From Sphaerotilus sp. (GTDB lineage: Bacteria > Pseudomonadota > Gammaproteobacteria > Burkholderiales > Burkholderiaceae_C): a stretch of DNA of 64,000 bases. The notes under the pieces are model-generated. The model was given only the letters and a program-made list of their open reading frames with translations, was not told the origin of the DNA and did no database searches. Below, piece by piece: positions 2,663-18,394 of the stretch. A program made the position numbers and the translations under genes. The first letter of the stretch is position 1. Every line of letters begins with the position of its first letter. The stretch covers positions 1 to 64,000 of the forward strand of contig JAAFKB010000001.1 in the NCBI GenBank assembly GCA_013299055.1, read 5' to 3'.

Positions 2663-2916
2663 GCGACGACCTCCACCACGACCCGGACGCGACCCTCGTC
2701 CGCCTGGCCAACCGCATCGGCGACTTCTTCACCGCCTTCCCCGACCGCGACGAGGCGATCGACGGTGTGGCCCAGCACCTCCGCAAGTTCTGGGAGCCGC
2801 GCATGCGCCGACGGCTGTATGCCCATCTGGACGGACCTGCAGCCGGAGAAGGGCTGGACACGCTGGTGCGCGAGGCGGTCACGCTGCGCCGTGCCATGCT
2901 GCAGCCGGCGCCCTGA
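2659..2916 (+). CDS. fdsD: Formate dehydrogenase delta subunit
   Basis: Small 85-residue protein beginning with GTG whose first bases overlap the fdsA stop (GTGA). It carries the FdsD signature: an N-terminal stretch LVRLANRIGDFF, then a Pro-Asp-rich turn and HLRKFWEPRMRRRL. FdsD proteins are accessory to NAD-dependent formate dehydrogenases and are thought to help assembly or maturation of the molybdenum subunit; that role is from the family, not visible here. It is the last gene of the fds operon in this window; downstream lies only a decayed protease gene on the other strand. Confidence 0.88.
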   Translation: MSDDLHHDPDATLVRLANRIGDFFTAFPDRDEAIDGVAQHLRKFWEPRMRRRLYAHLDGPAAGEGLDTLVREAVTLRRAMLQPAP

Positions 2917-2949
2917 CGCTGGGCGTCCCGCGGCACCTCACGGTCGGGC

Positions 2950-3782
2950 GATCTGCACGTAGCGACGCAGGATCGCTGGCGGTGGTGCAGGTGATCGCCT
3001 CGGCATGGTGCGAGAACCGTGCCGTCACCTGCACGCCCGGCTGCACCATGACGCTTGCCGACCACAGGGCATCGCCGGTTCTCCGGGCCGTCGAACAGCA
3101 AACGATCGGTCGATTGGCGGGCCTTCGCCACGAGACCAGGGCTGGCCTGTGACCACAGCTGGCTGCGCACCTGGGCTGGAGTGAGCTTCGGACGCTCCTG
3201 CAGCAGCGCGGCGGCGCCAGCCACGTGCAAGAGTCGGACGTCGAGGTGCCGCTGCGGGTGATCCAGCCTTGCGGGTCCGCATGCGAGGCGGCCTGGATGG
3301 CGCTGCCGGGGGCGAAGAGATCGACGCAGCGGTCGTGGTTGGAAAACGCTGCGCGGGCGTCCGTGGCTGTGCTGGACGCCACCGTCAGCGCGTCCGGCGT
3401 GCGTGCGGGAGACTGCAGGCGGGCATCTGTGTTGCCGTTGCCCGCCGCCACTACCACGGTGAACCCTGCCTCGACCAGCCGGGCAACCGCTGTGTCGAAG
3501 GTGTCAGAGGCGACGCTGCCGAGGCTGATGTTGACCACGCCTGGCCGCTGCCCATGGGCCGGGATCCAGTCGGTCAGGGTCGATCCGCAGGACGCCGGGG
3601 TCGTCGCGCAGGCGCTGCAGCAGGCGGCTGATCTGTGCGGTCGGCACCGTGGTGGAAAAGCCTTGTAGCGCGTGGGAGAGCGTGGGTGTAATGCCGCTGT
3701 GCCCACGCACCAGGGATGCGGCCGTCGCCGTCAGTGCCACGGCAGTCCCACGCAGCCGGCGGGTGGTGAATGGATTGTTCAT
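2950..3782 (-). pseudogene. Decayed subtilisin-like (S8, proteinase K type) serine protease
   Basis: Three reading frames on the minus strand together give a broken subtilase. The first frame starts at ATG 3782 (MNNPFTTRRLRG), has a short hydrophobic signal-like stretch and the end of an inhibitor-I9 propeptide (ALQGFSTTVPTAQISRLL). It then jumps to another frame carrying GVVNISLGS, the oxyanion-hole region VVAAGNGNTDAR and SGTS of the serine box, and near base 3230 to a third frame with HVAGAAALLQE and the domain end. The segment that should hold the catalytic Asp (DSG/DTG) and His (HGT) boxes is missing between propeptide and GVVNISLGS, so an internal deletion plus at least two frameshifts have killed it. 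The left boundary is approximate. It separates the fds operon from the EPS locus. Confidence 0.8.
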
Positions 3783-4021
3783 TTGCGGTGGCCCGTGGCT
3801 TGGTCGGTCGGCACCCGCAGTCCCGGGGGCAGGGCGCCCTGGTGCTGTTGTCGATCCCTGCAAAAGAAAGTGAATCACCGTTTTTTCGGTGCGATGCTGC
3901 ACGCCATGGATATGTGAAATCGTGCGCGTACATATCGTGCGGCTCGGGCGACAGCGCACGGAGAAAGAGCGTCGGCAGCGATGGTGCCGCTTACCATTCA
4001 AGCCCTCACTTTTCCCCGACC

Positions 4022-4828
4022 ATGCTCCCTCGGCCCGATCTCTCACGCGCAACACCGTCCGCCGATGTGCTGACCCTGTCCGGTGGACGAACGCTGGTGA
4101 GCGTGGCGGGGGCTCCGATCGACGCCATCACCTGGGAAGAGACCTGCGCCGTGATCACGGGCTGGGCTCAGCGCCGCGAAAGCCGTTATGTGTGCATCTG
4201 CAATGTCCACTCGGTGATCACCGCCCAGGAGGATCCGGATTTCCACGATGTCATCCAGTCGGCCGACATGGCCACACCCGACGGGGCGCCGGTGGCGTGG
4301 ATGATGCGGCGGCTTGGCTACCGGGACCAGATGCGCATCAATGGCCCGGATCTCATGTTCCGCTACTGCGCCCAGGCGGCTCAGCGTGACGAGTCGATCT
4401 TCCTGTATGGCAACACGCAGCAGACGCTGGAACGCCTGCAGCGCCGTCTGCTCGACGTCTTTCCTGCTCTGAAGATCGCTGGCAGCTACTCGCCCCCGTT
4501 CCGGGCACTCACCCCTCAGGAAGATGCCGAGGTTGTCCAGCGCATCAATGCGTCCGGTGCCCGCACGGTCTGGGTCAGTCTGGGCTGCCCGAAGCAGGAG
4601 CGCTGGATGGCCGCCCACCGTGGCCGCATCCAGGCGGTGATGCTGGGGGTCGGGGCTGCGTTCGACTACCACGCCGGCACCCTGCAGCGTGCCCCGCTGT
4701 GGATGCAGCGCCATGGGCTGGAGTGGCTGCACCGCTTCTGGTCCGAGCCTCGTCGGCTGGGACGCCGTTATCTCGTCACCAACACCAAGTTCACGGTGCA
4801 GGTCGTCAAGCAATTGCTGGGGCGTTGA
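4022..4828 (+). CDS. WecG/TagA/CpsF family glycosyltransferase, copy 1
   Basis: 268-residue cytosolic or membrane-associated GT26-type enzyme that transfers a sugar (ManNAc or ManNAcA type in known members) onto a lipid-linked intermediate. The family's conserved features are present: ICNVHS near residue 61, the acidic site TPDG with Asp87 (equivalent to the proposed TagA catalytic Asp), INGPDL, the YSPPF loop, LGCPKQERWM, and the C-terminal tail EPRRLGRRYL that in TagA docks on the membrane. ATG 4022 was chosen because homology begins just after it; the frame is open further upstream but without family similarity. The 239 bases before it hold a small stem-loop (CACCG, six T, CGGTG at 3876-3891). 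It is immediately followed by a paralogous copy. Confidence 0.88.
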   Translation: MLPRPDLSRATPSADVLTLSGGRTLVSVAGAPIDAITWEETCAVITGWAQRRESRYVCICNVHSVITAQEDPDFHDVIQSADMATPDGAPVAWMMRRLGYRDQMRINGPDLMFRYCAQAAQRDESIFLYGNTQQTLERLQRRLLDVFPALKIAGSYSPPFRALTPQEDAEVVQRINASGARTVWVSLGCPKQERWMAAHRGRIQAVMLGVGAAFDYHAGTLQRAPLWMQRHGLEWLHRFWSEPRRLGRRYLVTNTKFTVQVVKQLLGR

Positions 4829-5635
4829 ATGCACATGACCGCCACCATGGCTGAAAGCCTGGATACTCCCACGGACCGTCTGCGTCAGCCGGTGCTGGGC
4901 GTACCGGTCGATGTGCTGGACTGGCCCACGGCGGTCGGGCGCATCTGCGACTGGGCACAGCGAGGCGAGTCGCGCTATGTGTCCATCTGCGATGCCCACT
5001 CGATCGTGCGGGCCAGCCGCGAGGCCGACCATGGGCGCCACATCGCACAGGCCGACATGGTCACGGCCGATGGGTGGCCTGTGGCCTGGATGCTGCGGCA
5101 CCTGGGACATCCGCAGCAAGAGCGCATCAATGGGCCTGACCTGATGCTGCACCTGCTGGTCGAGGCTGAACGGCGTGGCCTCGGGGTCTACGTCTATGGC
5201 ACGACACCGGACACGCTCTCTGCGCTGGAGGCCGCGTTGCGATCGGGCTACCCCCGGCTGCGCATCGTGGGCCTGCACTCGCCGCCTTTCCGTGCACTCA
5301 CGGCCGAGGAGGATGCTGCAGACGTGGCGCGCATCAACGCATCGGGGGCGCATCTGGTGATGACCGGTCTGGGGTGTCCGAAAGAGGACCGCTGGATGCA
5401 TGCCCACCGTGGGCGCGTGCAGGCCGTGATGCTGGGCATCGGGGCTGGCATCGACTTCCATGCTGGCACCGTGGTCCGCGCCCCTGCCTGGATGCGTGAC
5501 CATGGCCTCGAATGGCTGTTTCGGCTGAGCCAGGAGCCGCGTCGGCTCTGGAGGCGTTATCTCGTGCACAACACCCTGTTCGTGGTGGGTGCCCTGAGGC
5601 AGTTTGCACGGCACGCGCTGGTACACCGCCCCTGA
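4829..5635 (+). CDS. WecG/TagA/CpsF family glycosyltransferase, copy 2
   Basis: Tandem paralogue of the preceding gene, same length (268 residues), starting at the ATG directly after its TGA (an alternative ATG lies two codons in). It keeps TADG with Asp81, INGPDL, HSPPF, GLGCPKEDRWM and the EPRRLWRRYL tail. One difference matters: where copy 1 has ICNVHS, this copy has ICDAHS, so the conserved Asn of the active-site region is Asp55. That suggests a changed substrate or a second, different sugar-transfer step rather than redundancy (inference). Translational coupling with copy 1 is likely. About 70 bases without a clear terminator separate it from the aminotransferase. Confidence 0.88.
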   Translation: MHMTATMAESLDTPTDRLRQPVLGVPVDVLDWPTAVGRICDWAQRGESRYVSICDAHSIVRASREADHGRHIAQADMVTADGWPVAWMLRHLGHPQQERINGPDLMLHLLVEAERRGLGVYVYGTTPDTLSALEAALRSGYPRLRIVGLHSPPFRALTAEEDAADVARINASGAHLVMTGLGCPKEDRWMHAHRGRVQAVMLGIGAGIDFHAGTVVRAPAWMRDHGLEWLFRLSQEPRRLWRRYLVHNTLFVVGALRQFARHALVHRP

Positions 5636-6966: not shown

Positions 6967-8052
6967 ATGGCTCGCCCTCAGCACATTCTGGTCACTGGCG
7001 CTGCCGGCTACATTGGCTCGGCCTTGGTGCGCGAACTGCTGATGCGCGGGCACCGGGTCACGGCTGTGGACAGCATGGTGTTCGGGGAGGATGGGCTGGC
7101 CGACCTGTGCCGGCATGACCGCCTGCAGATCCACCGCCTGGACGTGCGTTCGCTGCACCGTGGGCACCTGACCGGCATGCAGGCCGTGGTCGATCTGGCC
7201 GGGCTGTCCGGCGAATCCGTGATGGAGCCAGGCGCATCGGGGCTCGACAGCGGACACCACCGCGCGCAGATCCGCCTGGCGCAGCTGGCACGCAGCAGCG
7301 GCATCCCCCGCTATCTGTTGGCCAGTTGCTGCAGCGTCTACGGGCATGCGTCCGGACAGGTGTCTGGAGAGGATTCCTGCGTCCGCCCGCTGACCCACCA
7401 CGCCCAGAGCTGTCTGCTGGCAGAAGCGGCCATCCTGCCGTTGGCCTCGGCAAGTTTTGCGCCGGCGGTGGTCCGACTGGGGCTGGTCCATGGGCGCGGC
7501 TCGCGCATGCGGCTCGACCTGATGGTCAATGCCATGGTGCTCAGTGCCTTGCGCCTGCAGCAGATCACCCTCGACAACGGCGGTATGCAGTGCAGAGGCC
7601 ACCTGCACCTGTCGGATGCTGTCCGGGGCTTCGTGGCGGTCCTGGAGTCACCTGCCAGCGTGGTCCGCCGTCAGGTCTTCAACATCAGCCACCATAGCGT
7701 GAGTGGCCTGCAGGTGGCCGAGGTGATCCGGATGGTGCTGGGAGGACAGGTCCGAATCAATCCGCAGGGAGGTGTTCCCGACTTCCACCACCACAGCCCG
7801 ACTTCTCAGAAGGCGCAGGATCTGCTGGGCTATGCACCGCAGGTGGGATTGAGTGCAGCGGTGCTGGAGCTGGTGGACGCCTTGAGCCCTGGAACGGCCA
7901 GCGAACCGCCGGAGGCGCTGGCCATGCGCTGGATCCGCGAAATCCTGGCGCAGGGCAGGGAAGAGCGCGCCGCCATCGCGTACACCAGCGACTACGAGCG
8001 CGAGACCAGCCGGTCACGCCAATCCCGTGCCGGGCTGCTGCTGTCCGGCTGA
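6967..8052 (+). CDS. NAD(P)-binding SDR-family epimerase/dehydratase-like protein lacking the Tyr-Lys catalytic pair
   Basis: 361 residues, extended-SDR architecture like nucleotide-sugar epimerases. The dinucleotide-binding motif GAAGYIGSAL is intact at residues 11-20, Asp35 sits at the end of beta2, and ASCCSVYG matches the usual SSxxVYG strand. Where the family has YxxxK (PYAxSK), this protein reads HHAQSC: His145 replaces Tyr and Cys149 replaces Lys (codons at 7399 and 7411). The sequence is otherwise intact, so this is a substitution rather than decay. It could be a non-catalytic partner, a binder of nucleotide sugars, or an enzyme with altered chemistry. The 3' end overlaps the convergent glycosyltransferase gene by 39 bases. 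Confidence 0.82.
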   Translation: MARPQHILVTGAAGYIGSALVRELLMRGHRVTAVDSMVFGEDGLADLCRHDRLQIHRLDVRSLHRGHLTGMQAVVDLAGLSGESVMEPGASGLDSGHHRAQIRLAQLARSSGIPRYLLASCCSVYGHASGQVSGEDSCVRPLTHHAQSCLLAEAAILPLASASFAPAVVRLGLVHGRGSRMRLDLMVNAMVLSALRLQQITLDNGGMQCRGHLHLSDAVRGFVAVLESPASVVRRQVFNISHHSVSGLQVAEVIRMVLGGQVRINPQGGVPDFHHHSPTSQKAQDLLGYAPQVGLSAAVLELVDALSPGTASEPPEALAMRWIREILAQGREERAAIAYTSDYERETSRSRQSRAGLLLSG

Positions 8053-8955
8053 CCGCAGCCGGCGCTCCAGCAGCACATCGGCCAAGGTGGTCCGCGCGGT
8101 CGGGCGCACCGCATCCAGCTTGACCCAGGATTGCGCCTGGTTCGAGTAGGCAATGACCGGCGCCGGCTTCCAGCGCAGCATGCGCGCCAGGTGCCGCATG
8201 GCCTCGCCACGGCGGTTGAGCATGCGCCAGGCTGCGGATGCACGCGGCAGCGCAGCCGTCACGCGATCCACTTCATCATCGTAGTGGTGGCGTCCGGCAG
8301 ACGAACGCTGCTCTCCTGGGCGTTGCCGAAAAGCGGCCAGGGGTGTTGCAACCGACACCAGTTCGGCATGCTCCGCGAAACGCCGCCACAGATCGAAATC
8401 GGCCGCGTATTTCAACGACAGATCGAGGCCACCCACCCGCTCCCACAGACTGCGTCGCCAGAACATGCTCTCCTGTTGCAGGAAACCGGACAGGGATTCA
8501 CGGTACCAGCCGCTGGCAATGTCACTGCGTGGGTAGCCGGGTGCCTGCACCCCCGCCACGCGGGTGCACTGCCCTTGACGGTTGAGATAGGCTGGCGCCC
8601 CGATGATCCAGTCCACCTCGGGAAACTGGGCAAACACCTCCCCGACCACCGACAGGGTCCAGGGCAGGTAGATGTCGTCCGCATTCAGCCAGGCGCAGAC
8701 CTCTCCGGAGGCCAGCGACATTCCTTTCTGGATGGCGTGGTACTGGCCCTCGTCCGGTTCGCTGGAAAAATGGGACAACCCCGACGCATGGCGCCGGACG
8801 ATGTCGAGCGTGCCATCCCGCGATCCACCGTCCAGCAGCACGTAGTCGAGTGCGGGATAGTCCTGCTGGAGCACGGACCGCAGCGTGGCCTCGATGTAGG
8901 CCTCGGCGTTGTAGCAGGTCGTGACCAGCGAAATTGTTGGCAGCGTCATGTGCAT
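8014..8955 (-). CDS. Glycosyltransferase family 2
   Basis: 313-residue GT-A fold glycosyltransferase. N-terminal ISLVTTCYNAEAYIEATL, LLDGGSRDGTLDI, and the metal-binding acid site WLNADD are all present; EPDEGQYHAIQKGM is typical of GT2 enzymes of polysaccharide loci. No membrane segments are seen, so it acts at the cytoplasmic face. A second ATG two codons in (8949) is an equally possible start. It is the last gene of the long minus-strand EPS block, six bases after the GT4 gene, and its end overlaps the convergent SDR gene. Confidence 0.88.
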   Translation of the reverse strand: MHMTLPTISLVTTCYNAEAYIEATLRSVLQQDYPALDYVLLDGGSRDGTLDIVRRHASGLSHFSSEPDEGQYHAIQKGMSLASGEVCAWLNADDIYLPWTLSVVGEVFAQFPEVDWIIGAPAYLNRQGQCTRVAGVQAPGYPRSDIASGWYRESLSGFLQQESMFWRRSLWERVGGLDLSLKYAADFDLWRRFAEHAELVSVATPLAAFRQRPGEQRSSAGRHHYDDEVDRVTAALPRASAAWRMLNRRGEAMRHLARMLRWKPAPVIAYSNQAQSWVKLDAVRPTARTTLADVLLERRLRSAGQQQPGTGLA

Positions 8956-16728: not shown

Positions 16729-17418
16729 TCACTGCGCAAGGCCAGCCAGCCGCCTACGCTCACCTTGTCCGACATGGGACAGCAGTGAACGTGCGAACTG
16801 CGCGTGCAACTCGAACGCCTTCACGCTGTCGCGATCGATGCTGGACAGGCGAAACAGCAGTCCGTCGGCCACGAAACCATCCATCGCATAACGGATGTCC
16901 AGCATCTTCTTCTCGATGCCACTCGACACCGAGAAATCTCCGAGGGTAGTCCAGTAAGTCACGGGTTCGTAGCGCTGCTGACTCAACACCGTTTCCAGCC
17001 GGCGCACTGGGATCACCCCATGCGCAGTGGTGAGCTGGTCCTTGACATTGGTGCGCACCTGAAATCCTTGTGCTGGGTAGCAGACCTCGGGTTTGTGTAC
17101 CTGAAAATCGTCTCCCTGATTCTTGCCATAAGCAATTGACAGGATCACCCGCTCGCCTTTGGTGTTTTCATAGATGCGCGAGATCGTTTCAGAATAAAGC
17201 CGATTGATGAGGTCTTCGGCTTGTGGATTCACGATCCCTCCGTTGCTTGGAACCACACGCCAGTCTCCAAATCGCACCGGAATCATTGGTTCAATTTTCA
17301 GCTGCTGCCTGGTTTCGGCCAGCATGCGTGTTGGTTTGGCCGCCGTCGCCAGCACTGCCGTGGCGGTCATGATGACGGCCATCACCACAGCCGTCCTGAT
17401 GGGTGCGTTGGGCTTCAC
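16729..17418 (-). CDS. epsI: EpsI family exosortase-associated protein
   Basis: 229 residues; GTG start at 17418 with AGGA about ten bases upstream. An N-terminal hydrophobic anchor (TAVVMAVIMTATAVLATAA) is followed by a periplasmic domain with FGDWRV, the YGKNQGDDFQVHKPEVCYPAQGF segment (HxPExCY) and EPVTYWTTLG, all hallmarks of EpsI. EpsI proteins are always next to or fused with exosortases and are needed for EPS production or sorting; the biochemical role is unknown. It follows the exosortase after 31 bases. Confidence 0.9.
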   Translation of the reverse strand: MKPNAPIRTAVVMAVIMTATAVLATAAKPTRMLAETRQQLKIEPMIPVRFGDWRVVPSNGGIVNPQAEDLINRLYSETISRIYENTKGERVILSIAYGKNQGDDFQVHKPEVCYPAQGFQVRTNVKDQLTTAHGVIPVRRLETVLSQQRYEPVTYWTTLGDFSVSSGIEKKMLDIRYAMDGFVADGLLFRLSSIDRDSVKAFELHAQFARSLLSHVGQGERRRLAGLAQ

Positions 17419-17449
17419 AGTGTTCTTTCCTGATATTCTGTTGTGTCCA

Positions 17450-18373
17450 TCATGCCTTGACAGACCTTGTCACGCCGCGCTCCGACCAGAAACGGACAAC
17501 AGTGCGAATCAGCGTGTCGGAGAGGATGATCAGCATCAAGGCGGCCATGAACAGCACCATCCCGGCAAAACCATGCAGGAACCCCTGTCCAGCTTCGTCG
17601 CCAAGATAATAAGTCACCAGCGTGAGCACGATCACCCGGATGACGTTCGCTGTAAAGCTGATGGGCACGATCAGCACAGCCAGCGTCACGTTGCGAGCCA
17701 CCGATTCATGCCGAATCAAGTTCAGGTACAACAAGCCAAGTGCTTCCAGTGTAAATAACGTGTGAAGCCCTGCACATGCATCGGCCACCAGCAGCTGATA
17801 TTGACCGATCTGCAGAATGACACCACTGCGACTGATCGGATAACCTCCCGCATACAGCATTGCTTCTGCAGTATAGGAAACTGCCATCTTCATCGGCTGT
17901 GTCATCGCATCGACGACGACACTGGGCAGGGGAATCATGAACGCCATGAAGAAAAGGGGGAACCAGAGCGACCGCATGGCCGCTGACCCCTTCAACAAGA
18001 GCACCGCTGCGGCGATGACGGCAATGAGTGTACCGACCTCGAACAGCAGAATGTCCTGCGAGCGGCCGAGTGCGTACAACAGCATTGCCAGCGCGAAAAT
18101 ACTCCATCCCCAAGCGCGCGAGGGTTGAGCGGGCAAAGCAGCAACCTCTGGCACCTTGCGCCACAGCAACCAGAACGAAATGGCCAGCACGATCGGCCCG
18201 TGCCCTTGGCTGTCAGTCGCCCACAAGCCGTGGAACAGTCCCCAGAAAGTAGGGCCGAACATCGCGGCAGTCCCGCCCAGCACGATCAACCAGGGATGGA
18301 CTTGTCGATTGGCCAAGATGGTCTTCAGCGACGAAAGAGACATGGGCACAGAAGGAGACACGGCAGAGCGCAT
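17450..18373 (-). CDS. xrtB: Exosortase (XrtB type)
   Basis: About 307 residues, multipass inner-membrane cysteine transpeptidase-like enzyme that is thought to cleave C-terminal sorting signals (PEP-CTERM) and hand proteins to the cell surface or EPS. The catalytic set is visible: VADACAGLH (Cys200), PISFTANVIRV (Arg246) and FLHGFAG (His267), each in predicted membrane helices. ATG 18373 is chosen; an in-frame TTG two codons earlier and an ATG at 18343 are alternatives. The B type is assigned because it sits in an epsD-E-F-G-exosortase-epsI order. No PEP-CTERM protein was found in this window, so its substrates are elsewhere. Confidence 0.88.
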   Translation of the reverse strand: MRSAVSPSVPMSLSSLKTILANRQVHPWLIVLGGTAAMFGPTFWGLFHGLWATDSQGHGPIVLAISFWLLWRKVPEVAALPAQPSRAWGWSIFALAMLLYALGRSQDILLFEVGTLIAVIAAAVLLLKGSAAMRSLWFPLFFMAFMIPLPSVVVDAMTQPMKMAVSYTAEAMLYAGGYPISRSGVILQIGQYQLLVADACAGLHTLFTLEALGLLYLNLIRHESVARNVTLAVLIVPISFTANVIRVIVLTLVTYYLGDEAGQGFLHGFAGMVLFMAALMLIILSDTLIRTVVRFWSERGVTRSVKA

Positions 18374-18394
18374 GAGCAAGCAGTCCAGTCTGGA

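Follow-up and report, generated by a model that had tools for sequence, protein, structure and literature searches.

The stretch of DNA analyzed here, the first 64,000 nucleotides of contig JAAFKB010000001.1 from Sphaerotilus sp. (assembly GCA_013299055.1, forward strand; hereafter the window), carries a gene for an extended short-chain dehydrogenase/reductase (SDR) that has lost both the Tyr and the Lys of the SDR active site. We suggest that this protein, the window SDR, is a former nucleotide-sugar SDR that now binds NAD and is probably a non-redox partner in the pathway of the DegT aminotransferase encoded next to it, a reading that we favor with restrained confidence. We arrive at it because the cofactor motif is unchanged, the gene is under purifying selection (weaker than that on its neighbors), and its presence tracks that of DegT. 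The gene and the codons discussed below are as follows.

6967..8052, + strand: extended SDR without Tyr and Lys, 361 residues, intact ATG open reading frame (ORF), Pfam Epimerase PF01370
6997..7020, + strand: codons of the GAAGYIGS cofactor-binding motif (residues 11-18), intact
7267..7269, + strand: Q101 codon; Arg in 15/15 Tyr-keeping Lys-less relatives, Gln in 6/6 Tyr-less proteins
7327..7329, + strand: C121 codon, by alignment the usual catalytic Ser/Thr position
7399..7401, + strand: H145 codon, at the catalytic Tyr column in the alignment with relatives
7411..7413, + strand: C149 codon, at the catalytic Lys column in the alignment with relatives

An extended SDR without its catalytic residues

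The PF01370 match spans residues 7 to 240 of the window SDR and scores 98.7 bits against a cut-off of 20.9. No NCBIfam family exceeded its cut-off among the 25 of 33 listed, the best being galE with 61.3 against 262.3 bits. The GxxGxxG motif (GAAGYIG, residues 11-17) and the acidic residue after strand 2 (D35) are both present. The YxxxK site, by contrast with relatives that have Y and K four residues apart, reads HAQSC (H145, C149) within the catalytic helix PLTHHAQSCLLAE. The strand preceding this helix is ASCCSVYG, with Cys at position 121, which we take to be the equivalent of GalE Ser124. Thus all three classical positions are altered (C121, H145, and C149). Relatives from outside the genus, 75 proteins comprising the best 80 of 290 matches minus five from the genus itself, have Tyr in 75/75 and Lys in 74/75, with T in 66 and S in 9 at position 121. 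The single Lys-less exception among them, L028 from a member of the Geminicoccaceae, reads YAKAN.

A preliminary description of this gene, made from the letters alone, had noted an intact GAAGYIGS motif and the replacement of YxxxK by His145 and Cys149, through substitution, in an otherwise undamaged 361-residue protein. The ORF, the PF01370 match, and the alignment agree with this account, and the alignment columns of six genus genomes bear out the loss of both residues by substitution; the altered Ser/Thr position (C121) was absent from it. It had also asked whether a neighboring Tyr/Lys pair might be the real catalytic site, and there is none. Tyr occurs only at positions 15, 116, 125, 289, 339, and 343, with none in 126-288, and the sole Lys is K282, so no neighboring pair can substitute. 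With no Tyr or Lys near 145-149 and one Lys in the whole protein, a misaligned active site is ruled out. A sequencing or assembly error is ruled out as well, because six genomes of the genus concur in lacking both residues, including those of S. natans ATCC 13338, S. sulfidivorans D-501, and Leptothrix sp. C29. Loss of the Lys through a generally low lysine content was also considered and rejected: the genus proteins have 1-3 Lys, but the counted Lys-less relatives outside the genus have 8-21.

Orthologues within the genus

Eight of 13 genomes of the genus Sphaerotilus/Leptothrix, the window's own assembly (G000; 4.09 Mb in 239 contigs, 83.8% complete) among them, carry an orthologue, at roughly 40-71% identity. 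Named genomes among the genus matches are Sphaerotilus sp. bin69, S. sulfidivorans D-501, S. natans ATCC 13338, Leptothrix sp. C29, and a Burkholderiaceae metagenome-assembled genome. The other five genomes have no orthologue; one of these five is just 68% complete, and two of them gave matches at 28-31% only. With at most five candidates scored per genome, no orthologue appeared outside the genus at E <= 1e-40 in a family sample (5/399 genomes matched, all of the same genus) or at E <= 1e-50 in an order sample (1/399, the window's own). A catalytically complete paralogue (L002; 31% identity, YAKEK) is encoded in the window's genome and was rejected as a constant partner of the SDR. Similar matches are L021 in G008, at comparable identity, and L019 and L020 in G003 and G009, at 28-31%; these three were left out of the alignment.

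None of the eight genus members retains YxxxK. At the Tyr/Lys sites they read H/C in the window, Q/C in G008, Q/F in G004, H/C in G001, H/V in G005 and G010, and Y/N in G011 and G012. Lys is therefore absent in 8/8 and Tyr in 6/8 (replaced by H or Q), while the two that keep Tyr have Asn at the Lys site. Position 121 is C in the window, G008, and G011 and S in the other five. G11, G14, G17, D35, D59, R170, R180, R182, and D217 are invariant in 8/8. Among the six Tyr-less proteins, position 144, next to the former Tyr, is occupied by H (four proteins) or R (two); elsewhere the residue varies (P, A, T, S, V, I, and others). The ORF is open in all eight genomes, down to 40% identity.

The preliminary description had also allowed for new chemistry, which in its literal form would make His145 and Cys149 the new catalytic residues. 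The window and G001 both have H...C at these sites, but the other four Tyr-less orthologues read Q...C, Q...F, and, twice, H...V. As the sites vary between H and Q and among C, F, and V in the six Tyr-less proteins, conserved new chemistry is unsupported, and we regard a new conserved His/Cys catalytic pair as very improbable.

A Lys-less branch and the order of the losses

A search with the Y/N orthologue of G012 covered 369 genomes and returned 12 matches, the window's included. Follow-up queries with the members found covered 398 genomes (3 matches), 99 genomes (6 matches, including the query's own genome), and 61 genomes (5 matches, one already known). Asn occupies the Lys site, as YAKAN or YARAN, in L117, L118, L119, L122, L131, L139, L143, L144, and L145, in addition to L028 (YAKAN). 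Cys or Ser is found there in L132 and L133 (YAQTC) and in L146 (YADSS), and YxxxK is kept in the other aligned matches (L120, L121, L123-L127, and L140-L142). Because the extra members were found by querying with members, the frequency of Lys-less proteins here is no estimate for SDRs at large.

In a 43-protein tree whose rows are chosen subsets, picked after the pattern was known and with the 22 Lys-bearing relatives picked from those seen, a branch with 100/96 support, seen in 98% of 200 bootstrap trees, separates 21 Lys-less proteins from the 22 Lys-bearing ones. A 35-row tree gives the same split (99/97). Genus rows failed the composition test in both trees, seven of the eight in the 43-row tree. 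The Lys-less proteins outside the genus form one clade with the window SDR (100/96), all without Lys. They differ from it in keeping Tyr and Ser121 and in having Arg101, and their Asn type sits in rml operons. Tyr is kept in 15 of the 21 Lys-less proteins. The six without it group together (100/99) inside the Lys-less part of the tree, and their sister proteins are the two Y/N members of the genus. As the root was placed at the midpoint, the direction of change rests on the near-universality of Lys in the wider family.

On these trees the window SDR is a nested derivative of the Lys-less branch, and the most parsimonious account has the losses occurring in sequence: one old Lys loss, then one Tyr loss inside Sphaerotilus. 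A loss of both residues in a single event is not supported, the Lys loss being older and placed in a wider branch that keeps Tyr. The SDR active site would thus have been lost stepwise: first the Lys, in a proteobacterial branch that gained an Arg close by, and then both Tyr and that Arg in one genus, with intermediates still living today. Among the matches listed in a literature search that covered few subscription papers, no paper dealt with a Lys-less extended-SDR branch with Arg101 or with its Tyr-less offshoot.

Position 101 and the substrate side

A scan of the columns of the 43-row set, made with the groups already known, found Arg101 in 15/15 Tyr-keeping Lys-less proteins, 0/22 Lys-bearing proteins, and 0/6 Tyr-less proteins, which have Gln in 6/6. 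Among the 75 named relatives, Arg101 occurs once, in L028, the sole Lys-less one. The window SDR fits the Tyr-keeping Lys-less type in its missing Lys but departs from it in Q101 and H145. Position 101 lies in a helix predicted at 96-110, four residues past a near-constant Asn97 (15/15 Tyr-keeping Lys-less and 21/22 Lys-bearing proteins; His in 3/6 Tyr-less ones), which we take to be the tetrad Asn of SDRs. Arg101 is perhaps a substitute charge for the lost Lys, itself gone once Tyr was lost. The pattern is a correlation of single events, as one gain and one loss suffice on the tree.

In ketoreductase domains of the YxxxN type, Lys and Asn have been swapped. A swap of that kind is ruled out here, position 97 being Asn in all 15 Tyr-keeping Lys-less proteins; compared with the "complex" SDRs, the Asn-type relatives keep Asn at 97, gain Arg101, and show no swap. 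An SDR with Asn at the Lys site is in itself nothing new, since the available text of PMC3144213, which also names the catalytic tetrad, gives YxxxN as the motif of "complex" SDRs, a feature that these share with the Asn-type relatives of the window SDR.

Turning to the substrate side, T173, P211, and G241 are constant in 22/22 Lys-bearing proteins and changed in 6/6 Tyr-less ones, and R180, R182, D184, R210, H214, and D217 are retained. The substrate side thus appears to have drifted in the Tyr-less group. Because positions conserved across the family have changed there, binding of a sugar nucleotide is less certain than binding of the cofactor.

Selection on the SDR gene

The six Tyr-less proteins have a mean pairwise identity of 1.00 over residues 7-21 and 0.95 over 31-37, compared with 0.64 over 6-305. 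An excess over the overall figure is likewise seen for segment 7-21 in nine non-genus Lys-less proteins (0.73 vs. 0.56). For the catalytic helix (141-153), the Tyr-less group has 0.63, no better than its average, whereas the corresponding values are 0.71 vs. 0.56 in the Lys-less proteins outside the genus and 0.49 vs. 0.42 in 20 Lys-bearing ones. Site rates within the genus place S18, D35, D59, H98, S120, and E153 in the slowest fifth; positions 121, 149, and 145 fall at the 61st, 71st, and 47th percentiles.

Ratios of nonsynonymous to synonymous substitution rates (dN/dS) were computed by the Nei-Gojobori method, with no correction for codon bias in these GC-rich genes. In the least diverged pair, G005-G010, the only one with a low dS (0.16), the SDR has a dN/dS of 0.24, against 0.08 in DegT and 0.12 in the second WecG-type glycosyltransferase gene upstream of DegT (WecG2). 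The pair G001-G005 gives 0.62, 0.30, and 0.17, respectively. The 13 pairs with G011 or G012 give 0.51-1.10 for the SDR, and these ratios are weak, because the proportion of synonymous differences there is 0.32-0.57 and bears little relation to protein distance. From these patterns we conclude that the SDR is kept by purifying selection, looser than that on the neighboring genes.

These numbers bear on another possibility, which we consider improbable: the gene would be left over from a pathway step since lost, decaying slowly and surviving by chance in an operon that is otherwise selected. The ratio for the SDR is 2-3 times that of its neighbors in the closest pair, the catalytic and several substrate-side positions vary, and 5 of the 13 genus genomes, among them the 68% complete one, have no orthologue; in G011 the match extends beyond a TGA, and the ORF ends at 348 residues. 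Against decay stand the eight open reading frames, the ratio of 0.24 in the closest pair, and the unchanged cofactor motif. The gene does not behave as a pseudogene, given the same open frames and low closest-pair ratio, though 3 of 28 pairs, all distant, have values of 1.00-1.10 that would suit decay. Its product would instead qualify as a pseudoenzyme, that is, a predicted enzyme fold without conserved catalytic residues that appears to be selectively kept. According to the available text of PMC10211241, pseudoenzymes that serve as scaffolds and allosteric regulators form a recognized class.

The DegT gene and its neighbors

The SDR gene is the last of four consecutive genes on the + strand, WecG1-WecG2-DegT-SDR, and meets a convergent gene at its 3' end.

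3770..4828, + strand: WecG/TagA/CpsF glycosyltransferase, copy 1 (WecG1), Pfam PF03808
4829..5635, + strand: WecG/TagA/CpsF glycosyltransferase, copy 2 (WecG2), Pfam PF03808, NCBIfam TIGR00696
5708..6820, + strand: DegT/DnrJ/EryC1 sugar aminotransferase, Pfam PF01041 (322.8 bits), 146 bases upstream of the SDR
8014..8955, - strand: family 2 glycosyltransferase, convergent with the SDR

The order of the four genes is also found in G008, G004, and G001. DegT retains in the alignment the Lys of FFADK, which we take to be the pyridoxal phosphate lysine. At E <= 1e-60, 7/13 genus genomes have DegT, each of them also one of the eight that carry the SDR, and every carrier of a Tyr-less SDR (6/6) is included. 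The preliminary description had proposed a non-enzymatic role tied to the adjacent aminotransferase, which fits the DegT co-occurrence together with the intact cofactor motif and the apparent purifying selection.

Between DegT and the SDR lie two acyltransferase genes in G010 (L106:8202-11433, one with a fused SGNH domain) and at least one in G005 (L105:3785-4876), an arrangement that would fit sugar acylation. A sugar phosphotransferase gene follows the SDR in G001, G005, G010, and G012 (PF02397 in the three scanned); as a constant neighbor it was rejected, being found in only 4/8 genus members, the window not among them.

Predicted structure and comparison with known SDRs

An AlphaFold model of the window SDR, built with a 42-row alignment, has a mean predicted local distance difference test score of 89.2 and a predicted template modeling score of 0.86, with residues 81-100 and those beyond 310 weaker. 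It predicts a confident extended-SDR-type fold whose best match among solved structures is Cj1427, the GDP-D-glycero-D-manno-heptose C4-dehydrogenase of Campylobacter jejuni (PDB 6vo6, 6vo8; Foldseek E 5.3e-25; VIA-align Z 37.2, root-mean-square deviation 1.7 Å over 296 residues, 25% identity). Many nucleotide-sugar epimerases and dehydratases lie within 4 Z units of Cj1427 (50 rows listed), so the fold alone does not decide the reaction. The two proteins share the fold, an RMRLDL-VN substrate segment, and a polysaccharide pathway, but Cj1427 keeps the catalytic Tyr and Lys in the alignment, whereas the window SDR has neither. The sequence group of Cj1427 (NTNSGYG-type) does not appear as sister of the window clade in the trees. 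According to the available text of PMC10680097, Cj1427 is a ping-pong C4-dehydrogenase with tightly bound NADH; its oxidant is alpha-ketoglutarate, which it turns into L-2-hydroxyglutarate.

Other SDRs lack some of the usual residues. The UDP-GlcNAc 4,6-dehydratases PglF and WbpM are, like the window SDR, nucleotide-sugar SDRs without the catalytic Tyr; as set out in the available part of PMC8987622, Met replaces Tyr while Lys is kept, and proton uptake in PglF falls to a Thr-Asp pair. Their TDK motif and Mx3K site with its Lys are absent from the window SDR, which has C121-C122-S123 and C149. Compensation of the PglF kind was rejected: the window SDR has no Asp at 122, which makes that solution unavailable, and no Lys, and Asp at 123 is found in just 3/6 Tyr-less proteins. 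VEP1 proteins, by the available account in PMC3144213, lack the SDR tetrad and still reduce enones, with a conserved relocated Lys. They resemble the window SDR in being SDR-derived and in keeping the Rossmann fold with the usual tetrad gone, and differ in their measured activity and strictly conserved relocated Lys, the window SDR having no conserved Lys near the site.

SDRs in regulatory roles are known. One example, related to the nucleotide-sugar SDRs, is MAT2B, the regulatory subunit of human methionine adenosyltransferase, which modulates an enzyme from outside the SDR family; the available text of PMC3793261 has it keeping S136, Y159, and K163 and binding NADP. No literature match listed for NDUFA9 contained that name. 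The window SDR, altered at all three positions, differs in this respect, and MAT2B was rejected as a direct precedent for catalytic loss because its triad is intact.

Lys-less loci outside the genus

Contigs end nearby at some of the Lys-less loci, which limits the neighbor counts that follow. At the 10 Asn-type loci, RmlC adjoins the SDR in 9/10 and RmlD in 7, RmlA is nearby in 7, and an L-2-hydroxyglutarate oxidase is found in 2 and DegT in 1. The order rmlC, YAKAN/YARAN SDR, rmlD is seen in L128:5851-10618, L130:8137-11755, L134:6989-10359, L147:7078-10454, L149:6893-10182, and L151:7437-9934, with rmlA in four of these six. An L-2-hydroxyglutarate-oxidase-like gene is present in L128 and L130; the two genes score 335.1 bits, over the cut-off of 299, and 285.6 bits, just under it. 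DegT is near the SDR at 3/3 Cys/Ser-type loci, once beyond an intervening glycosyltransferase gene. Overall, Lys-less SDRs adjoin or lie near DegT in L129, L135, L136, and L150. The DegT proteins of L129, L135, and L136 are just 28-29% identical to that of the window. The two genes have thus come together repeatedly instead of descending as a single operon, though each is common in polysaccharide loci.

Of the 13 hosts of Lys-less SDRs outside the genus, 8 were searched for RmlB with TIGR01181; the search did not extend to G1623, G1624, G1625, G1608, or the L028 host. RmlB over the cut-off was absent in four of six Asn-type hosts (G832, G881, G1121, and G1169, the last a single contig of 100% completeness) and present in the other two (G803 and G1521). 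Of the two Cys-type hosts searched, G1178 has it and G1283 gave a partial match only. RmlB over the cut-off is also found in the window's genome and in 5/7 other SDR-carrying genus genomes. Weaker matches occur in all hosts, and a divergent RmlB below the cut-off is possible in those lacking a full match.

These loci bear on the main alternative, that the window SDR is still a redox enzyme, namely, a Cj1427-like nucleotide-sugar C4-dehydrogenase whose tightly held NAD would be recycled by alpha-ketoglutarate, whose keto sugar would be fed to DegT, and whose proton would travel via water, the substrate, or the remaining Ser/His. We think this rather unlikely. Its model, Cj1427, is the best fold match and uses alpha-ketoglutarate to yield L-2-hydroxyglutarate (PMC10680097, in part), but itself has the Tyr and Lys that are missing here. 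An L-2-hydroxyglutarate-oxidase-like gene accompanies the rml genes and the SDR in two Lys-less operons, while the 64-kb window has no match to such an oxidase at E <= 1e-15. The adjacency to DegT in four Lys-less loci agrees with it, and DegT could recycle the alpha-ketoglutarate. A dehydrogenase/aminotransferase precedent exists in the WbpB/WbpE pair, in which, according to the available text of PMC10622841, alpha-ketoglutarate oxidizes the 3-dehydrogenase WbpB in P. aeruginosa. In the Tyr-less group, however, the replacements at the Tyr and Lys sites vary, the candidate substitute Arg101 is gone, and neither the PglF solution (for want of Asp122) nor a relocated Lys of the VEP1 type is at hand.

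For the Lys-less branch as a whole, we put forward a tentative proposal that we hold to be doubtful as it stands. The branch would have moved its positive charge to Arg101 on the neighboring helix and would still oxidize sugar nucleotides at C4, with NAD recycled by alpha-ketoglutarate. Beside rmlA, rmlC, and rmlD, the SDR would replace RmlB and give keto sugars that keep the 6-hydroxyl; beside DegT, it would lead to amino sugars, with alpha-ketoglutarate returned. Arg101 and Tyr would then have been lost in Sphaerotilus. Standing in RmlB's place in rml operons, the Lys-less SDRs are candidate makers of non-6-deoxy 4-keto dTDP-sugars. If the proposal is true, they would be candidates for the activity making TDP-4-keto-glucose with the 6-hydroxyl kept, which the available text of PMC9095892 states as not yet identified; the link between the two is one that we infer. 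Among the literature matches listed for rml genes with lhgO (8 of 179), none contained lhgO, and the two on sugar-nucleotide enzymes with 2-hydroxyglutarate had off-topic titles.

A probable non-redox partner of the DegT pathway

Returning to the reading that we favor, the window SDR would keep its two-domain fold and its NAD(H) site and may still hold a nucleotide sugar or its keto form. It would act beside DegT as a carrier, an allosteric subunit, or a stabilizer, without hydride chemistry of its own, and the SDR-DegT step would make an amino sugar for an exported polysaccharide.

Several observations weigh against this reading. A well-conserved cofactor motif is found throughout the family, 20 Lys-bearing proteins included (0.61 over residues 7-21 vs. 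0.42 overall). The three pairs with SDR ratios of 1.00-1.10 (G001, G005, and G010, each vs. G011), in which DegT has 0.38-0.40, would by themselves allow near-neutral drift, dS having apparently leveled off there. Some SDRs, such as PglF, WbpM, and VEP1, work without the usual residues, and S120, present in 43/43 aligned rows, together with H or R at position 144 in 6/6 Tyr-less proteins, makes another proton relay conceivable. As for the partnership itself, G012 has the SDR but no DegT match at E <= 1e-60, and in G011 the two genes are convergent on opposite strands, 1.7 kb apart, so that the linkage may reflect a shared polysaccharide locus only.

Other features of the polysaccharide cluster

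The - strand of the window encodes glycosyltransferases, a Wzy_C/O-antigen-ligase protein, a pyruvyl transferase, an FrhB/FdhB protein, a flippase-like protein, DUF3485, an exosortase, a Wzz-type chain-length protein, and a polysaccharide export protein. The sheath genes of Sphaerotilus-type sheath formers are described as not well understood in the available text of PMC13386937. Our analysis draws attention to a gene of such organisms that is maintained within a polysaccharide cluster, and this cluster may possibly be connected with the sheath.

The tandem WecG/TagA/CpsF genes at 3770-5635 are each 50-56% identical to orthologues of the other copy. The true start of copy 1 is probably further in, as orthologues align from residue 5, 28, or 74. 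The 3' ends of the SDR and the family 2 glycosyltransferase genes overlap by 39 bases (8014-8052). At 16729-18379 (- strand), the genes for DUF3485 (EpsI-type) and the exosortase have orthologues that are 51-54% and 66-70% identical, respectively. Finally, the stretch at 2879-3706 (- strand) has a partial Peptidase_S8 match of 50.7 bits (profile positions 106-242 of 288) and a 66%-identical counterpart in G008 (L102:14086-14415), and is possibly a decaying subtilase gene.

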